Assembly (NCBI RefSeq): GCF_023195695.1
Contig: NZ_JALPQG010000001.1
Location: 124,001 to 188,000, forward strand
Direction of reading: 5' to 3'
DNA from: Aliiroseovarius sp. S1339
GTDB taxonomy: Bacteria; Pseudomonadota; Alphaproteobacteria; Rhodobacterales; Rhodobacteraceae
DNA: 64,000 nucleotides
Shown here: piece by piece, positions 52,442-56,810 of the stretch
Position numbering within the stretch: position 1 is the first letter of the stretch
Layout: each line of letters opens with the position of its first letter
Program-made: the position numbers and the translations under genes
Notes under the pieces: model-generated
Database searches by the model: none
What the model saw: only the letters and a program-made list of their open reading frames with translations
Told to the model about the DNA's origin: nothing

Positions 52442-53461
52442 ATGACAGATGCGCTGACCCAACTTATGACCGAACGCGACTGGCTGATGGCCGACGGTGC
52501 AACCGGAACCACCCTGTTCAACATGGGTCTGACATCTGGCGACGCGCCCGAGCTTTGGAATGTCGACAAGCCCGACAACATCCGCGCGTTGTACAAGGGC
52601 GCGGTGGACGCCGGGTCGGATATTTTCCTGACCAATTCGTTCGGCGGCAATGCCTCGCGCCTGAAGTTGCACGGTGCACAAAACCGCGTGCGTGAATTAA
52701 ACCGAGCCGCCGCCGAACTGGGCCGCGAGGTCGCTGATGCCTCGGGTCGCAAAGTGGTCGTGGCAGGCTCGGTCGGACCAACCGGCGACATAATGGAGCC
52801 GATGGGCACCCTGACCTTCGACAGCGCGGTCGAGATGTTCCATGAACAAGCCGAGGGCTTGAAGGAAGGCGGCGCAGATGTGCTTTGGGTCGAAACGATT
52901 TCGGCGCCCGAAGAATACAAAGCCGCCGCCCGCGCGGCCGAACTGGCCGACATGCCGTGGTGCGGCACGATGAGCTTTGACACCGCCGGGCGCACCATGA
53001 TGGGCCTGACCTCGGCCGATCTGGCGAAACTGGTGGAAACCTTGGTAAAGCCGCCACTGGCCTTCGGTGCAAATTGCGGTGTCGGGGCGTCTGACCTGCT
53101 GCGCACCGTGCTTGGCTTTGCCGCACAGGGCAGCGAACGACCGGTCATTGCCAAAGGCAACGCAGGCATCCCGAAATATGTGGACGGGCATATTCACTAC
53201 GACGGCACGCCCGAACTGATGGCGGATTATGCCGTATTGGCGCGCGATTGCGGTGCCACGATCATTGGTGGCTGCTGCGGCACCACGCCCGAACACCTGC
53301 GCGCCATGCGGGAGGCGCTGGAGACCCGCCCGCGCAGCGACACGCGCCCCACATTGGACCAGATCACAACAGCACTTGGCGGGTTCTCGTCCGCGTATGA
53401 CGGCACCGGCGACGATGCTGGCCCCAAACCCGAACGCCGGTCGCGCCGCAGGCGCAGTTAA
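52442..53461 (+). CDS. bmt: Homocysteine S-methyltransferase (betaine- or corrinoid-linked)
   Basis: The 339-residue zinc methyltransferase has a TIM barrel like BHMT and the homocysteine domain of MetH: DGATGTTLFNMGL at the N-terminus, TNSFGGN, and zinc cysteines at Cys212 (ANCGVG) and Cys278/Cys279 (GGCCGTTP). It would methylate homocysteine to methionine. Roseobacter homologues are called betaine-homocysteine methyltransferase; a genetic study, as I recall, found such a protein to be one part of a split MetH in Phaeobacter. The corrinoid protein gene 1.3 kb downstream favours the second role. The basic tail ERRSRRRRS is unusual. Confidence 0.85.
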   Translation: MTDALTQLMTERDWLMADGATGTTLFNMGLTSGDAPELWNVDKPDNIRALYKGAVDAGSDIFLTNSFGGNASRLKLHGAQNRVRELNRAAAELGREVADASGRKVVVAGSVGPTGDIMEPMGTLTFDSAVEMFHEQAEGLKEGGADVLWVETISAPEEYKAAARAAELADMPWCGTMSFDTAGRTMMGLTSADLAKLVETLVKPPLAFGANCGVGASDLLRTVLGFAAQGSERPVIAKGNAGIPKYVDGHIHYDGTPELMADYAVLARDCGATIIGGCCGTTPEHLRAMREALETRPRSDTRPTLDQITTALGGFSSAYDGTGDDAGPKPERRSRRRRS

Positions 53462-53484
53462 CCGACACGGGACACGATCTGGAA

Positions 53485-53511
53485 ACGAGGGTGATTCAGC
53501 CCTCGTTTTTT
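53485..53511 (+). terminator. Intrinsic terminator after the homocysteine methyltransferase gene
   Basis: CGAGGG and CCCTCG form a 6-bp stem around an 8-base loop, followed by TTTTTTATT. It lies 24 bp past the stop codon and just before the convergent radical SAM gene. Confidence 0.88.
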
Positions 53512-53526
53512 ATTGATCGAAAGGCG

Positions 53527-54612
53527 TTAGAACAGAGACAACTGGTCGCCGGCTTTTGGGGGCACGGCAAACAGATCACTGCGCAGTTTTGGAAGGTCAC
53601 GCGGCAGATCAAGGCGTTTTCGGACAATCGCAAACCGGTGTCGCAGCAAATCGGCAAATTCGCCCTGCCCGACCATTCGCGCGCCAAAACTTGCGTCATA
53701 GTCATCGCCCCCTCGCATCTCGCGCATCCGGCCCATCACGCGGGCGGCACGGTCGGGTACATGTTCCAGAAGCCAATCCTGAAACAACTCCGCCACCTCG
53801 CCGGGCAGCCTGAGCAGAATGTAATCTGCGGCGTTCGCACCTGCATCTTTCGCGGCGCACATGATGGCCTCAAGCTCGTGATCTGTCAGACCGGGCACGA
53901 CCGGCGCGACCATGACACGCACGGGAATGCCCGCGGCCGCCAGCCGTTCGATCATCTGCATCCGCCGCTTTGGGCTGGGTACGCGCGGCTCCATCCTGCG
54001 CGAAATATCTGCATCCAGCGTGGTGATGGAAATTCCCACATGAGCCAGCCCCGCCTGCGCCATTTCAGCCAACAGATCAATGTCACGTTCGATCAGCGTG
54101 CCTTTGGTAACGATGGTGACGGGATGGCGAAAGCGCGACAGAACCTCCAGCACGCCGCGCATGACGCGATAGCGCGCCTCGATCGGCTGATAGGGGTCGG
54201 TATTGGTGCCAATGGCGATCGGCGCGACACTATAACGTGGGCGCGACAGCTCTTGTTCCAACCGTTTTGGGGCGTTGGGGCGGGCGATCAGGCGCGTTTC
54301 AAAATCCAGTCCGGCAGAATACCCCAGATAGGCGTGGGTCGGCCGCGCGAAACAATAGATGCAGCCATGTTCGCATCCCCGATAGGGGTTTATCGACCGG
54401 TCAAACGCGATATCGGGTGAGCTGTTGCGGGTAATCACACTGCGCGGATTTTCAATCGCCACATGGGTGGGACGCGCCCGCGGCATGTCCTGATGCCAGC
54501 CATCGTCGATCCCGACCCGCTCATACGGTTCAAACCGACCGGCGCAATTGCTGACCGCCCCGCGCCCGCGCCGCTCTTCGGCCCTGATTTTCTTGTCCAG
54601 CTCTGAAACCAT
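53527..54612 (-). CDS. PA0069-type radical SAM protein
   Basis: The 361-residue radical SAM enzyme of the PA0069/SplB-like group has the cluster motif CEHGCIYCFARP (CxxxCxxC near residue 78), preceded by SINPYRGC. It also has TKGTLIERDIDLLA and ISITTLDADISRRMEPR of the partial TIM barrel. The substrate of this family is not known. The gene is on the minus strand between bmt and the corrinoid gene, so it interrupts the methyltransferase set. It shares a 180-bp divergent control region with the corrinoid protein gene. Confidence 0.88.
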   Translation of the reverse strand: MVSELDKKIRAEERRGRGAVSNCAGRFEPYERVGIDDGWHQDMPRARPTHVAIENPRSVITRNSSPDIAFDRSINPYRGCEHGCIYCFARPTHAYLGYSAGLDFETRLIARPNAPKRLEQELSRPRYSVAPIAIGTNTDPYQPIEARYRVMRGVLEVLSRFRHPVTIVTKGTLIERDIDLLAEMAQAGLAHVGISITTLDADISRRMEPRVPSPKRRMQMIERLAAAGIPVRVMVAPVVPGLTDHELEAIMCAAKDAGANAADYILLRLPGEVAELFQDWLLEHVPDRAARVMGRMREMRGGDDYDASFGARMVGQGEFADLLRHRFAIVRKRLDLPRDLPKLRSDLFAVPPKAGDQLSLF

Positions 54613-54646
54613 GCCTCAGCATAAGGACATAGCAGGAACATATGAA

Positions 54647-54733
54647 GTGAATTCACCATTTCATAGCGAATTATTCATTTGCCATTTGGTCGGTCACAGC
54701 GCAATCAGTGTCGCAATCGGTCCAGACCAAATG
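54647..54733. promoter_or_regulatory. Palindrome and long inverted repeat in the radical SAM-corrinoid intergenic region
   Basis: GTGAATTCAC (54647-54656) is a perfect 10-bp palindrome, with TGAA/TTCA flanks extending it. Downstream, CATTTGGTC (54683-54691) and GACCAAATG (54725-54733) are a perfect 9-bp inverted repeat 33 bp apart, enclosing two similar CGCAATC units. The region lies between two divergent genes and may hold operators or a structured leader RNA for the corrinoid gene. I do not recognise a known riboswitch class. Confidence 0.5.
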
Positions 54734-54792
54734 TGCGAAATCGTCGCATGTGGAAATTAAGTAAGAAAACCTCCAACTAGGGAACGACAGCT

Positions 54793-55497
54793 ATGTCCGA
54801 CCAAGAAGACGAAATCATCCTGAGCGAGCTTAACGATGAAGAGCTTGTGCTGCAGATGCATGACGACCTGTATGATGGCCTTGCCGAAGAGATCACGGAA
54901 GGCGTGAACATCCTGCTAGAGCGTGACTGGGCCCCTTACAAAGTCCTGACCGAAGCACTTGTTGCAGGCATGACCATCGTCGGGCATGATTTCCGCGATG
55001 GCATCCTTTTTGTGCCCGAAGTGCTGTTGGCCGCCAACGCGATGAAGGCCGGCATGGCCATTCTGAAGCCGCTTCTGATCGCGACAGGTGCGCCGCGCAT
55101 GGGCAAGATGGTCATTGGCACCGTGAAGGGCGACATCCACGACATCGGCAAGAACCTCGTGTCGATGATGATGGAAGGTGCGGGTTTTGAAGTCGTCGAT
55201 CTGGGCATCAACAATGCCGTCGACAGCTATCTTGACGCGCTTGAGGCTGAACAGGCGGACATTCTGGGTATGTCGGCGCTGCTGACCACAACGATGCCGT
55301 ATATGAAGGTCGTGATCGACACGATGATCGAAAAAGGCATTCGCGACGACTATACCATTCTGGTTGGGGGCGCGCCGCTGAATGAGGAATTTGGCAAAGC
55401 GATTGGTGCGGACAGCTATTGCCGTGATGCAGCCGTCGCGGTTGAGACGGCGAAAGACTACATGCTGCGCAAACACAACCAACTTGCGGCTGGCTGA
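54793..55497 (+). CDS. Corrinoid (B12-binding) methyltransfer protein
   Basis: The 234-residue protein has the two domains of MetH/MtbC-type corrinoid proteins: a helical cap (about 15-95, VPEVLLAANAMKAGM) and a Rossmann cobalamin domain with the axial-ligand motif GDIHDIGKN (Asp114, His116, Gly119), GMSALLTTTM (Ser161) and ILVGGAPL. It carries a methyl group on cobalamin between a donor methyltransferase and an acceptor such as the homocysteine methyltransferase encoded 1.3 kb upstream. It may therefore be the B12 part of a split methionine synthase. A strong terminator follows. Confidence 0.93.
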   Translation: MSDQEDEIILSELNDEELVLQMHDDLYDGLAEEITEGVNILLERDWAPYKVLTEALVAGMTIVGHDFRDGILFVPEVLLAANAMKAGMAILKPLLIATGAPRMGKMVIGTVKGDIHDIGKNLVSMMMEGAGFEVVDLGINNAVDSYLDALEAEQADILGMSALLTTTMPYMKVVIDTMIEKGIRDDYTILVGGAPLNEEFGKAIGADSYCRDAAVAVETAKDYMLRKHNQLAAG

Positions 55498-55517
55498 TCC
55501 TTCTGAACAAGACGTAT

Positions 55518-55552
55518 CAAGGCCCTGCCCGCGCGGTGGGGCCTTTTCTTTT
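55518..55552 (+). terminator. Intrinsic terminator after the corrinoid protein gene
   Basis: AAGGCCC and GGGCCTT pair around a GC-rich loop, followed by TTCTTTT. It lies about 20 bp past the stop codon and 27 bp before the next gene, so read-through to the following pair may be partial. Confidence 0.8.
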
Positions 55553-55578
55553 GGCACGCCAGACCCCAGATTAATCAG

Positions 55579-55764
55579 ATGAGCAAAACGCGTTTCTTTT
55601 TTCTGATCACGCTGGTGATCCTGGCGGGCGGGCTAACAGTGCTGATCGCCAGCCTTGCGGTTGCCTCTGGCAAGCTGGATGGGCAGGTCGCGATGGCACT
55701 TTTGCCTTTGGTCATGTTGGCGTCCATCGGCATCAGGGCGTTATCAGGCAGGAACGGCCAATGA
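55579..55764 (+). CDS. Small membrane protein, 61 residues, ahead of DUF1638
   Basis: The protein has two hydrophobic segments (about 6-29 and 37-55) and short charged ends (MSKTR, SGRNGQ), so it is a small inner-membrane protein with two helices. I do not recognise a family. Its stop codon overlaps the DUF1638 start by 4 bases (ATGA), which shows that the two are translated together. Its place right after the corrinoid gene suggests a role in the same process. Confidence 0.7.
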   Translation: MSKTRFFFLITLVILAGGLTVLIASLAVASGKLDGQVAMALLPLVMLASIGIRALSGRNGQ

Positions 55765-56399
55765 AACTAAGTGATGAGCGCCTGACACAAGATGGGCTGG
55801 CCCCAACTGACGCCTCGGCGAAGGTTTTGATATTGGCGTGTGGCGCGCTGGCCAACGAAATTCTGGCGCTTATCCGGCTGAACGGTTGGCATCACATGAG
55901 CCTGACCTGCCTGCCCGCGATCCTGCACAACACGCCTGACCGTATCCCCGATGCGGTGCGCGCAGCCGTGAAGATCCACAGGTCCGATTTCGATCAGATA
56001 TTTCTGGCCTATGCTGATTGCGGCACGGGCGGGCAGTTGACCGCACTTTGTGACGAGTTGGGGATCGAAATGATCAAAGGGCCGCATTGTTACAGTTTTT
56101 TTGAAGGCAACGACGCCTTCGCCGTGCGCGCAGAAGACGAGATCGACGTTTTCTATCTGACCGATTTTTTGGCGCGGGGGTTTGAGAGCTTCGTGATCAA
56201 GCCCCTTGGCCTGGATCGCCATCCCGAATTGCGGGACATGTATTTTGGCCATTACACCCGTCTGATCTATCTGGCGCAGACCGACAATCCCGATCTGGAT
56301 CGCATGGCCGAAGCAGCGGCAGAGCGGATTGGGTTGCGTTATGAACGGAAGTTCACCGGGTTTGGCGATCTGGCCGCAGCGCTTCAGCCATTAGGGTAA
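55761..56399 (+). CDS. DUF1638 family protein
   Basis: The 212-residue DUF1638 protein has VLILACGALANEILAL at the N-terminus, LTCLPAILHNTPDRIPDAV, a YADCGTGGQL loop with conserved Cys and a GPHCYSFFEG segment with Cys and His. The Cys/His set hints at metal or corrinoid chemistry, but no activity is established. As I recall, genes of this family often sit next to corrinoid methyltransferase genes, as here. It ends exactly where the sufE stop codon begins on the other strand. Confidence 0.85.
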   Translation: MKLSDERLTQDGLAPTDASAKVLILACGALANEILALIRLNGWHHMSLTCLPAILHNTPDRIPDAVRAAVKIHRSDFDQIFLAYADCGTGGQLTALCDELGIEMIKGPHCYSFFEGNDAFAVRAEDEIDVFYLTDFLARGFESFVIKPLGLDRHPELRDMYFGHYTRLIYLAQTDNPDLDRMAEAAAERIGLRYERKFTGFGDLAAALQPLG

Positions 56400-56810
56400 T
56401 CAGACAGCTTCGGCGGCGTGAAGGCGAATGCGTTCGACCATCGCGCGCACGCCGTTCGACCGCTGCGATGAAAGATGTTCGTTCAGCCCAAGGCGCGCAA
56501 GTTCCGCCGGCGCATCGATTTTTGCAACATCGGACACGGGCACATCGTTATAAAGCGCGGCCAGCACTGCGATCAAACCTTTCACAATCATGGCATCACT
56601 GTCGCCGCGAAACCGGAATGTGGCGTTCTCAATTTCAGGATGCAGCCAGACCTGACTGGCGCAACCTTCAACCTTGGTGGCGGGCACTTTCAACGCGTCC
56701 TCCAATGGCTGCAGCGACTTTCCCATGTCGATGACCGTGGCATAGCGGTCTTCCCAATCGTCCAGAAACTCGAAATCTTCGACAATCTCTTCAAAAGCTG
56801 CACTGGCCAT
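56400..56810 (-). CDS. sufE: SufE family sulfur-transfer protein
   Basis: The 136-residue SufE-type protein has the acceptor cysteine in TKVEGCASQVW (Cys50), on a loop that takes persulfide from the cysteine desulfurase SufS for Fe-S cluster assembly. The flanking FRFRGDSDAMIVKGLIAVL and LGLNEHLSSQRSNGV segments match the family. It is a single gene here, away from any suf operon. Its stop codon abuts that of DUF1638. Confidence 0.95.
   Translation of the reverse strand: MASAAFEEIVEDFEFLDDWEDRYATVIDMGKSLQPLEDALKVPATKVEGCASQVWLHPEIENATFRFRGDSDAMIVKGLIAVLAALYNDVPVSDVAKIDAPAELARLGLNEHLSSQRSNGVRAMVERIRLHAAEAV

Follow-up and report, generated by a model that had tools for sequence, protein, structure and literature searches.

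A probable split methionine synthase in Aliiroseovarius sp. S1339, with DUF1638 as a candidate partner in corrinoid reactivation

Introduction

In Phaeobacter inhibens, a three-part methionine synthase has been reported from genetic data (Price 2018, PMC5764234). The parts of the synthase are PGA1_c13370, PGA1_c13350 and PGA1_c16040 (locus tags from PMC12478193 and PMC12366255), and methionine rescues mutants in all three as well as in PGA1_c13340, which encodes a DUF1638 protein. The fitness of the DUF1638 gene correlates with that of PGA1_c15200, a RamA-like ferredoxin-DUF4445 protein whose mutants are also rescued by methionine (Price 2018, PMC5764234). No function is proposed for DUF1638 there, and the radical SAM gene PGA1_c13360 has no phenotype. 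Here, we analyse the corresponding locus of Aliiroseovarius sp. S1339, at positions 52,442 to 56,399 of a stretch of 64,000 nucleotides (the window), where a homocysteine methyltransferase (mtgE), a stand-alone corrinoid protein (mtgC), a small membrane protein and a DUF1638 protein are encoded, see Table 1.

The MtgBCDE system of Ruegeria pomeroyi DSS-3 includes SPO2160 (mtgC), SPO1863 (mtgD) and SPO1884 (mtgE), with SPO2162 as the DUF1638 protein and SPO2041 as RamA. There, mtgC and mtgD are required both for growth on glycine betaine and for methionine synthesis, their deletion mutants being methionine auxotrophs, and N-osmolytes raise the protein levels of DUF1638 and RamA (Mausz 2025, PMC12478193). 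Purified MtgE of P. inhibens, known as Bmt, acts on dimethylsulfoniopropionate (DMSP) and betaine in vitro (PMC12366255), and DUF1638 also appears as a protein of S. meliloti in a table of PMC12542648. The literature searched contains no mention of SPO2161, nothing on a small membrane protein tied to MtgC or the corrinoid, and nothing on a split between synthase and activation domain in Rhodobacteraceae.

The locus in the window is another copy of this split methionine synthase and glycine-betaine demethylase locus of the Rhodobacteraceae. As the genetics of the system is published, the main claim of novelty made in a first-pass annotation of the window falls. Its reference to a split synthase in Phaeobacter was right, while its statement that no role of DUF1638 had been described is contradicted by the methionine-rescued mutants and the rise in protein level cited above. 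We consider it very probable that the genome encodes a split synthase in which a RamA-like protein and DUF1638 take over the reactivation done in MetH by its activation domain, the other genes of the locus being neighbours.

The genes of the split synthase

MtgE scores 606.9 bits against NCBIfam PRK07534 (cut-off 338) and contains NCGVG and GGCCGT, which we take to hold the zinc-type cysteines. From its family and the order of the locus tags it is the likely counterpart of PGA1_c13370. MtgC carries GDIHDIG, a DxHxxG motif, and its putative role is assigned by homology to SPO2160 and PGA1_c13350. It reaches 190.1 bits against NCBIfam NF047996, under the cut-off of 370, and would be related to the anaerobe-type MtgC/MtbC equivalogs of NCBIfam, yet outside them. 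The DUF1638 protein matches PF07796 with 104.8 bits (gathering cut-off 27); its nearest named relatives, in a list that may omit records very near the window, are those of Aliiroseovarius sp. Z3 (87% identity) and A. halocynthiae (77%). All genes named in the first-pass annotation are present in this interval by family scans and open reading frames, and the 4-base overlap between the small open reading frame and the DUF1638 gene, ATGA, is read directly from the sequence.

The remaining parts lie elsewhere in the genome, which comprises 3.54 Mb in 19 contigs and is 99.99% complete. No match to PF02965, the activation domain of MetH, is seen in it; a control search matches in 7 of 14. Two proteins match PF00809. 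The one on contig C14 (L128:3785-4858) passes the PRK07535 cut-off and is taken as mtgD, the methyltetrahydrofolate (methyl-THF):corrinoid methyltransferase, while the one on contig C2 is presumably dihydropteroate synthase. The mtgD candidate adjoins a weakly MetF-like gene, taken as metF2, and 1.9 kb further on lies a 699-residue protein with three RACo regions, taken as a RamA-like activase. Three genes of the MTTB family (best E 5.4e-235) are MtgB candidates. The genome thus holds separate PF02574, B12 and pterin chains, a RamA-like activase and DUF1638, and the idea that the parts of MetH are here divided over several chains holds, with the pterin-binding protein and the activase on another contig.

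The only MetE-like match is a partial one to PF01717 (143-305 of 324, 28.5 bits), in a core-MetE-like protein of 374 residues; this search of the genome finds no canonical MetE, and PF08267 was not searched. By eye, the core-MetE-like gene (L129:1723-2847, contig C15) adjoins a cupin-like gene. P. inhibens has a core-MetE homologue as well, yet it is auxotrophic once mtgCDE are mutated (Mausz 2025, PMC12478193), and deletion of its Mes-like gene leaves the DMSP-dependent shortening of the lag intact (PMC12366255).

We suggest the following route. The unlinked, pterin-binding MtgD would pass the methyl group of methyl-THF to the cobalamin on MtgC, and MtgE would pass it on to homocysteine, an order of transfer that is supported by the genetics in relatives. 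Cobalamin that has been oxidised to cob(II)alamin would be reactivated by the unlinked RamA-like ATPase together with DUF1638, and these two would stand in for the C-terminal activation domain of MetH, which is absent here. The radical SAM protein, SufE and the 61-residue protein would not be needed for the synthase. The role of RamA is taken from its family and that of DUF1638 from genetics and distribution; that DUF1638 acts in the reactivation itself is what we infer. In a relative the locus serves glycine betaine demethylation as well.

Conservation of the neighbourhood

Of 100 genomes of the family, one per genus, 92 have a PF07796 match. We collected 90 DUF1638 loci from 89 of these genomes (G064 twice), leaving out G021 and G032, where the matches lie at contig ends; with the window (G000) this gives 91 loci. 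In 85 of these 91, DUF1638 is preceded on its own strand by the gene for MtgC, at a distance within 1500 bases in 77. Anywhere in the fetched stretch, mtgE (>60% identity) is seen in 63 loci, the radical SAM gene in 55 and sufE in 56, where some stretches end at contig ends and missing neighbours there are no proof of absence. A second collection of 80 named loci has mtgC in 77 stretches and the small protein in 29. As the order mtgC-DUF1638 is kept in this way, and as the small open reading frame is conserved by its substitution rates (see below), the locus is not a chance arrangement. The link between DUF1638 and the corrinoid protein made in the first-pass annotation is therefore well founded, and the random neighbourhoods that it named as evidence to the contrary are not what is seen.

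In other groups, S. meliloti, Azoarcus and Paracoccus aminovorans have mtgC, DUF1638, MetF pieces, mtgD and an ASKHA/RamA gene in this order on one strand, some of them separated by further genes. A virulence-factor-like gene is added in the stretches of the first two, and S. meliloti has further genes, some on the opposite strand, for example an entericidin gene between mtgC and DUF1638. In Azoarcus, the mtgC-DUF1638-mtgD-RamA genes stand beside betaine transport genes and mtgE is absent within the stretch. In Terrarubrum, mtgC and DUF1638 overlap.

Two loci, L090 and L124, carry open reading frames of 152 and 142 residues in the gap between mtgC and the small open reading frame. These share MSQRLN.LN near the start and, by eye only, have a four-helix, ferritin-like look. 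In a further locus (L126, genome G083), DUF1638 has the altered motifs YAECGAGW and GPNCY with the four cysteines kept, and mtgC lies outside the stretch; this genome has PF02965 and no PF14574 match.

Distribution of DUF1638, RamA and the activation domain

Across the 100 genomes, DUF1638 and the RamA-type family PF14574 occur together in 89, DUF1638 alone in 3, PF14574 alone in 4 (three of them only 74-82% complete) and neither in 4 (Fisher p 5.6e-4). PF02965 matches 16 genomes, 15 of them over the cut-off. It is present in 11/92 genomes that have DUF1638 versus 4/8 that do not (p 0.017), and in 10/93 that have PF14574 versus 5/7 that do not (p 7e-4); as the genomes are related, all these p-values are only a guide. 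The four genomes without DUF1638 and PF14574 (G023, G046, G088 and G094) all carry PF02965. Their sole MtgC match (E 2.5e-25 to 1.4e-23, 32-38% identity) lies near PF02965 in an equally long open frame and is read as MetH.

One genus is without DUF1638 and carries a candidate substitute. Genome G090 (97% complete) has mtgC (80% identity) and PF14574 but yields no DUF1638 match, and the same holds for the genus as a whole (0/12 genomes, a single one of them >90% complete). It encodes a protein of 234 residues (L235:4708-5412) with a sub-threshold match to PF02965 (21.5 vs 25 bits), and the gene follows a virulence-factor-like gene (PF13769), near a MetF-like gene by eye. All but one of the 12 genomes of the genus encode this activator-like protein (G090 and the orthologs L238-L247), against 0 of 68 other genomes searched. 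Nine of the 11 proteins were aligned (alignment A4), leaving out one with an internal stop and one fragment; against PF02965, seven of the nine reach E <= 0.001 (best 2.9e-6). N-R-x-A-P-G, followed by Y in 8/9, and P-R-M-S-R-S-G are invariant among them and resemble motifs of the MetH activation domain. Searched against the PDB, the profile has a single match at E <= 1, to 1j6r (E 4.3e-7), which was deposited under the name methionine synthase and is presumably the stand-alone MetH activation protein TM0269 of Thermotoga.

From these sequences, we read the genus as a case in which DUF1638, or its job, has been replaced non-orthologously by an S-adenosylmethionine (AdoMet)-type activator. If true, one genus swapped DUF1638 for a TM0269-like activator, with mtgC and the RamA-like protein kept in its best genome.

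DUF1638 and its possible role

Cys27, Cys50, Cys87, Cys110 and His56 of DUF1638 show no variation in three alignments, of 28, 70 and 9 sequences. Alignment A3 comprises 69 of the 80 named loci and the window, and the alignment of nine extends to Rhizobiales, one betaproteobacterium and divergent members of the family. In the last, Cys97 (5/9) and His109 (8/9) are not invariant. The conserved cysteine and histidine residues pointed out in the first-pass annotation are thus real, and the chemistry given to them is conjectural. The structural model is confident (predicted local distance difference test, pLDDT, 91.2) and globular alpha/beta, with Cys27 and Cys50 at strand ends, Cys87 after a strand and Cys110 opening a helix. 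In an alpha/beta sheet, positions of this kind often meet along one edge, which makes a four-cysteine site plausible from the model. This could be a metal or iron-sulfur (Fe-S) site, which would hand electrons to the corrinoid or dock it.

Foldseek gives 0 matches of the model in the PDB at E <= 0.001, the best having low template-modelling (TM) scores. With the sequence profile, the best PDB match is EZH2 (E 0.038), taken as chance, and among 47 pattern matches in viral contigs there is no relative.

The four invariant cysteines, together with the PF02965-related protein in the genus without DUF1638, support a role of DUF1638 in reactivation. A more specific proposal is that DUF1638, as a metal or Fe-S protein with a four-cysteine site, performs or gates the reductive reactivation of the corrinoid and is exchangeable with the AdoMet-dependent activation domain of MetH. 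We put this forward tentatively, as possible and well short of probable.

Alternatively, DUF1638 might be a chaperone that loads or guards the cobalamin of MtgC and does not reactivate it, which we regard as rather unlikely. Its position beside mtgC in most loci would fit, as would a globular model with invariant residues at strand ends. However, its fitness correlates with that of the RamA-like activase and its mutants are rescued by methionine (Price 2018, PMC5764234), DUF1638 and RamA are both missing in the four MetH genomes, and the activation-type protein occurs in just the genus that is without DUF1638.

It is also unlikely, and we think distinctly so, that MtgE is mainly a lone betaine/DMSP:homocysteine methyltransferase, with mtgC and DUF1638 serving mainly betaine catabolism. 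The activity of purified P. inhibens Bmt (PMC12366255), the Azoarcus stretch with betaine transport genes and no mtgE, and the three MTTB genes in the window genome would be expected in that case. The methionine auxotrophy of the R. pomeroyi mtgC and mtgD deletions (PMC12478193) would not, nor would the methionine rescue of all three parts and DUF1638 in P. inhibens (PMC5764234). The synthase and betaine roles may hold together.

Several points weigh against a split synthase with RamA-like and DUF1638 reactivation. Methionine could in principle be made otherwise, as a core-MetE-like gene is present, and Bmt works alone on betaine and DMSP in vitro (PMC12366255). DUF1638 could load or protect cobalamin instead of reactivating it, and as the model has no PDB match, no fold backs an Fe-S role. 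DUF1638 occurs without a PF14574 match in G054, G069 and G083, and 11 of the 92 genomes with it have PF02965 as well. G090 keeps mtgC and the RamA-like protein without DUF1638, so RamA need not have DUF1638. Within the genus mtgC and RamA were looked at in G090 alone; the swap is seen in one genus only, perhaps a single event, and genome reduction is a confounder for the absence of DUF1638 there. The terminator-like hairpin after mtgC, in the window and in 14 of 77 other loci tested, weakens the idea of one operon, and DUF1638 may sometimes have its own promoter. Finally, Aliiroseovarius sp. S1339 is known here from its genes alone, the phenotypes coming from P. inhibens and R. pomeroyi. The joint absence of DUF1638, RamA and mtgC from genomes that bear MetH, the invariant cysteines and the activator-bearing genus make the question of DUF1638 in reactivation directly testable.

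The small membrane protein

For the 61-residue protein, scans give no match in Pfam at E <= 1 and none in NCBIfam at E <= 0.001. Its model, of moderate confidence (pLDDT 79.3, predicted template-modelling score 0.44), is a hairpin of helices 3-29 and 35-60. A small protein is encoded upstream of DUF1638 and on its strand in 43 of the 91 loci, 42 found by profile and one (L125) by eye and later matched by a profile search at 1.8e-10; alignment A6 holds 27 of 29 named small open reading frames and the window. The exact 4-base overlap is seen in 9/43 and a distance within 25 bases of the DUF1638 start in 25/43. In three pairwise comparisons between the window and two Aliiroseovarius loci, the ratio of nonsynonymous to synonymous substitution rates (dN/dS) of the small frame is 0.13-0.27, against 0.02-0.11 for MtgC, MtgE and DUF1638. 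The small membrane protein is a real family.

However, its distribution does not follow that of the synthase. It is found in 50 of the 100 genomes, half of those with DUF1638 (46/92) and half of the others (4/8; odds ratio 1.0), in a search that is partly circular, 43 of the 50 matches being rows of its own alignment; the new matches are in seven genomes (G021, G022, G023, G032, G046, G088 and G094). The four MetH genomes without mtgC, DUF1638 and RamA retain it next to the radical SAM gene. L224 has radical SAM, small frame and sufE in a row, which is the arrangement of the window minus mtgC and DUF1638. In a tree of the radical SAM protein, built from the 58 of 95 stretches whose match was of sufficient length, the small-protein pattern of these four needs 3 changes, at least 2 of them by supported branches. 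The number of label changes in the tree is as low in 60 of 500 shuffles, so it is not unusually few. The small protein is absent from 11/11 Ruegeria loci, and the plasmid stretches of S. meliloti, Terrarubrum, Azoarcus and Paracoccus have no credible profile match (best E 0.3).

As its presence is independent of DUF1638 and it is kept in the four genomes without mtgC, DUF1638 and RamA, the small membrane protein seems to be an independent neighbour, kept for its own reason. The place in the corrinoid system that it had been given in the first-pass annotation is rejected on distribution. That it is a working subunit whose translation is coupled to that of DUF1638, for instance one that anchors B12 reactivation to the membrane or conducts electrons for it, is very unlikely, for all its conservation in the mtgC-DUF1638 gap, the overlap and the low dN/dS, when half of the DUF1638 genomes are without it. 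A caution follows from this: genes may be tightly linked, overlap by 4 bases and be under purifying selection without having a function in common.

A YbjQ-family gene (PF01906, by a scan of L045 alone) lies between the small protein and DUF1638 in 10 loci, and it always follows a form of the small protein of 69-73 residues (10/10). The two may work as a pair.

Neighbouring genes and features of the locus

The radical SAM gene is probably a syntenic neighbour outside the system. As a part of it, the gene was rejected on its PA0069 family, on the lack of a phenotype of PGA1_c13360 in P. inhibens and on its place next to the small frame in the four genomes without mtgC. The first-pass annotation had the gene rightly on the opposite strand, but took it for a local insertion, which does not agree with a neighbour present in more than half of the stretches. 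The hairpin after mtgC and the sufE-like gene just downstream of DUF1638 had been missed as well as this recurrence.

An Rfam scan of the window at gathering scores gives three tRNAs only and no riboswitch. Terminator-like sites number 9 in the scanned region of the window versus 5.0 (standard deviation 2.1) in shuffles, so that lone sites mean little. A terminator-like site separates mtgC from the next gene in 8/39 loci that have the small open reading frame and in 7/39 that do not, where mononucleotide shuffles give 0.2 and 0.3. This comparison kept 78 of the 91 loci and dropped those with gaps >1500 bases or no same-strand mtgC. The frequency being similar in both groups, the terminator fails to explain the small frame.

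Table 1. Features of the locus in the window, with a YbjQ-family gene from another locus
Feature	Coordinates	Strand	Details
mtgE/bmt, homocysteine methyltransferase module	52442-53461	+	339 residues; PF02574 E 9.9e-66; NCBIfam PRK07534
PA0069-family radical SAM gene	53527-54612	-	NCBIfam rSAM_PA0069, 509.3 bits vs cut-off 360
mtgC, putative stand-alone cobalamin-binding protein (cap + B12 domain)	54793-55497	+	234 residues; PF02607 + PF02310
Terminator-like hairpin between mtgC and small open reading frame	55519-55545	+	11 pairs, T-rich tail
Two-helix membrane protein open reading frame	55579-55764	+	61 residues; 4-base overlap with DUF1638
DUF1638 protein gene	55761-56399	+	212 residues; PF07796 E 5.5e-30; C27, C50, C87, C110 invariant
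sufE-like gene, closes the locus	56400-56810	-	SufE family; neighbour outside the system
YbjQ-family gene	L045:2618-2962	-	PF01906

Comparison with known systems

The split synthase of P. inhibens is built from the same gene families. Its order PGA1_c13370, c13360 (radical SAM), c13350, c13340 is mirrored by the window, and its pterin and RamA-like genes are elsewhere in the genome, as in Aliiroseovarius. Unlike the published P. inhibens locus, the window has the 61-residue open reading frame and the hairpin between mtgC and DUF1638, a comparison made from published descriptions only.

R. pomeroyi and the window genome share the same modules, with more than one MTTB (MtgB-type) gene each. However, by its locus tags mtgE is far from mtgC in R. 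pomeroyi, while the two are near each other in the window, and Ruegeria also differs in the small membrane protein, which is absent in all of its loci examined.

Single-chain MetH with PF02965 catalyses the same reaction, with the same set of homocysteine, pterin and cobalamin modules, as the system in the window, where the modules are on separate chains and the genome has no PF02965 match. In Thermotoga, the reactivation is split off as a separate protein, TM0269, to which the protein in the genus without DUF1638 is related. The window genome has no TM0269-like match and has DUF1638 and a RamA-like protein instead. Compared in this way, the locus is mostly a known system, to which two modest new leads are added: a small membrane protein that is independent of it, and an apparent swap between DUF1638 and a stand-alone activator.

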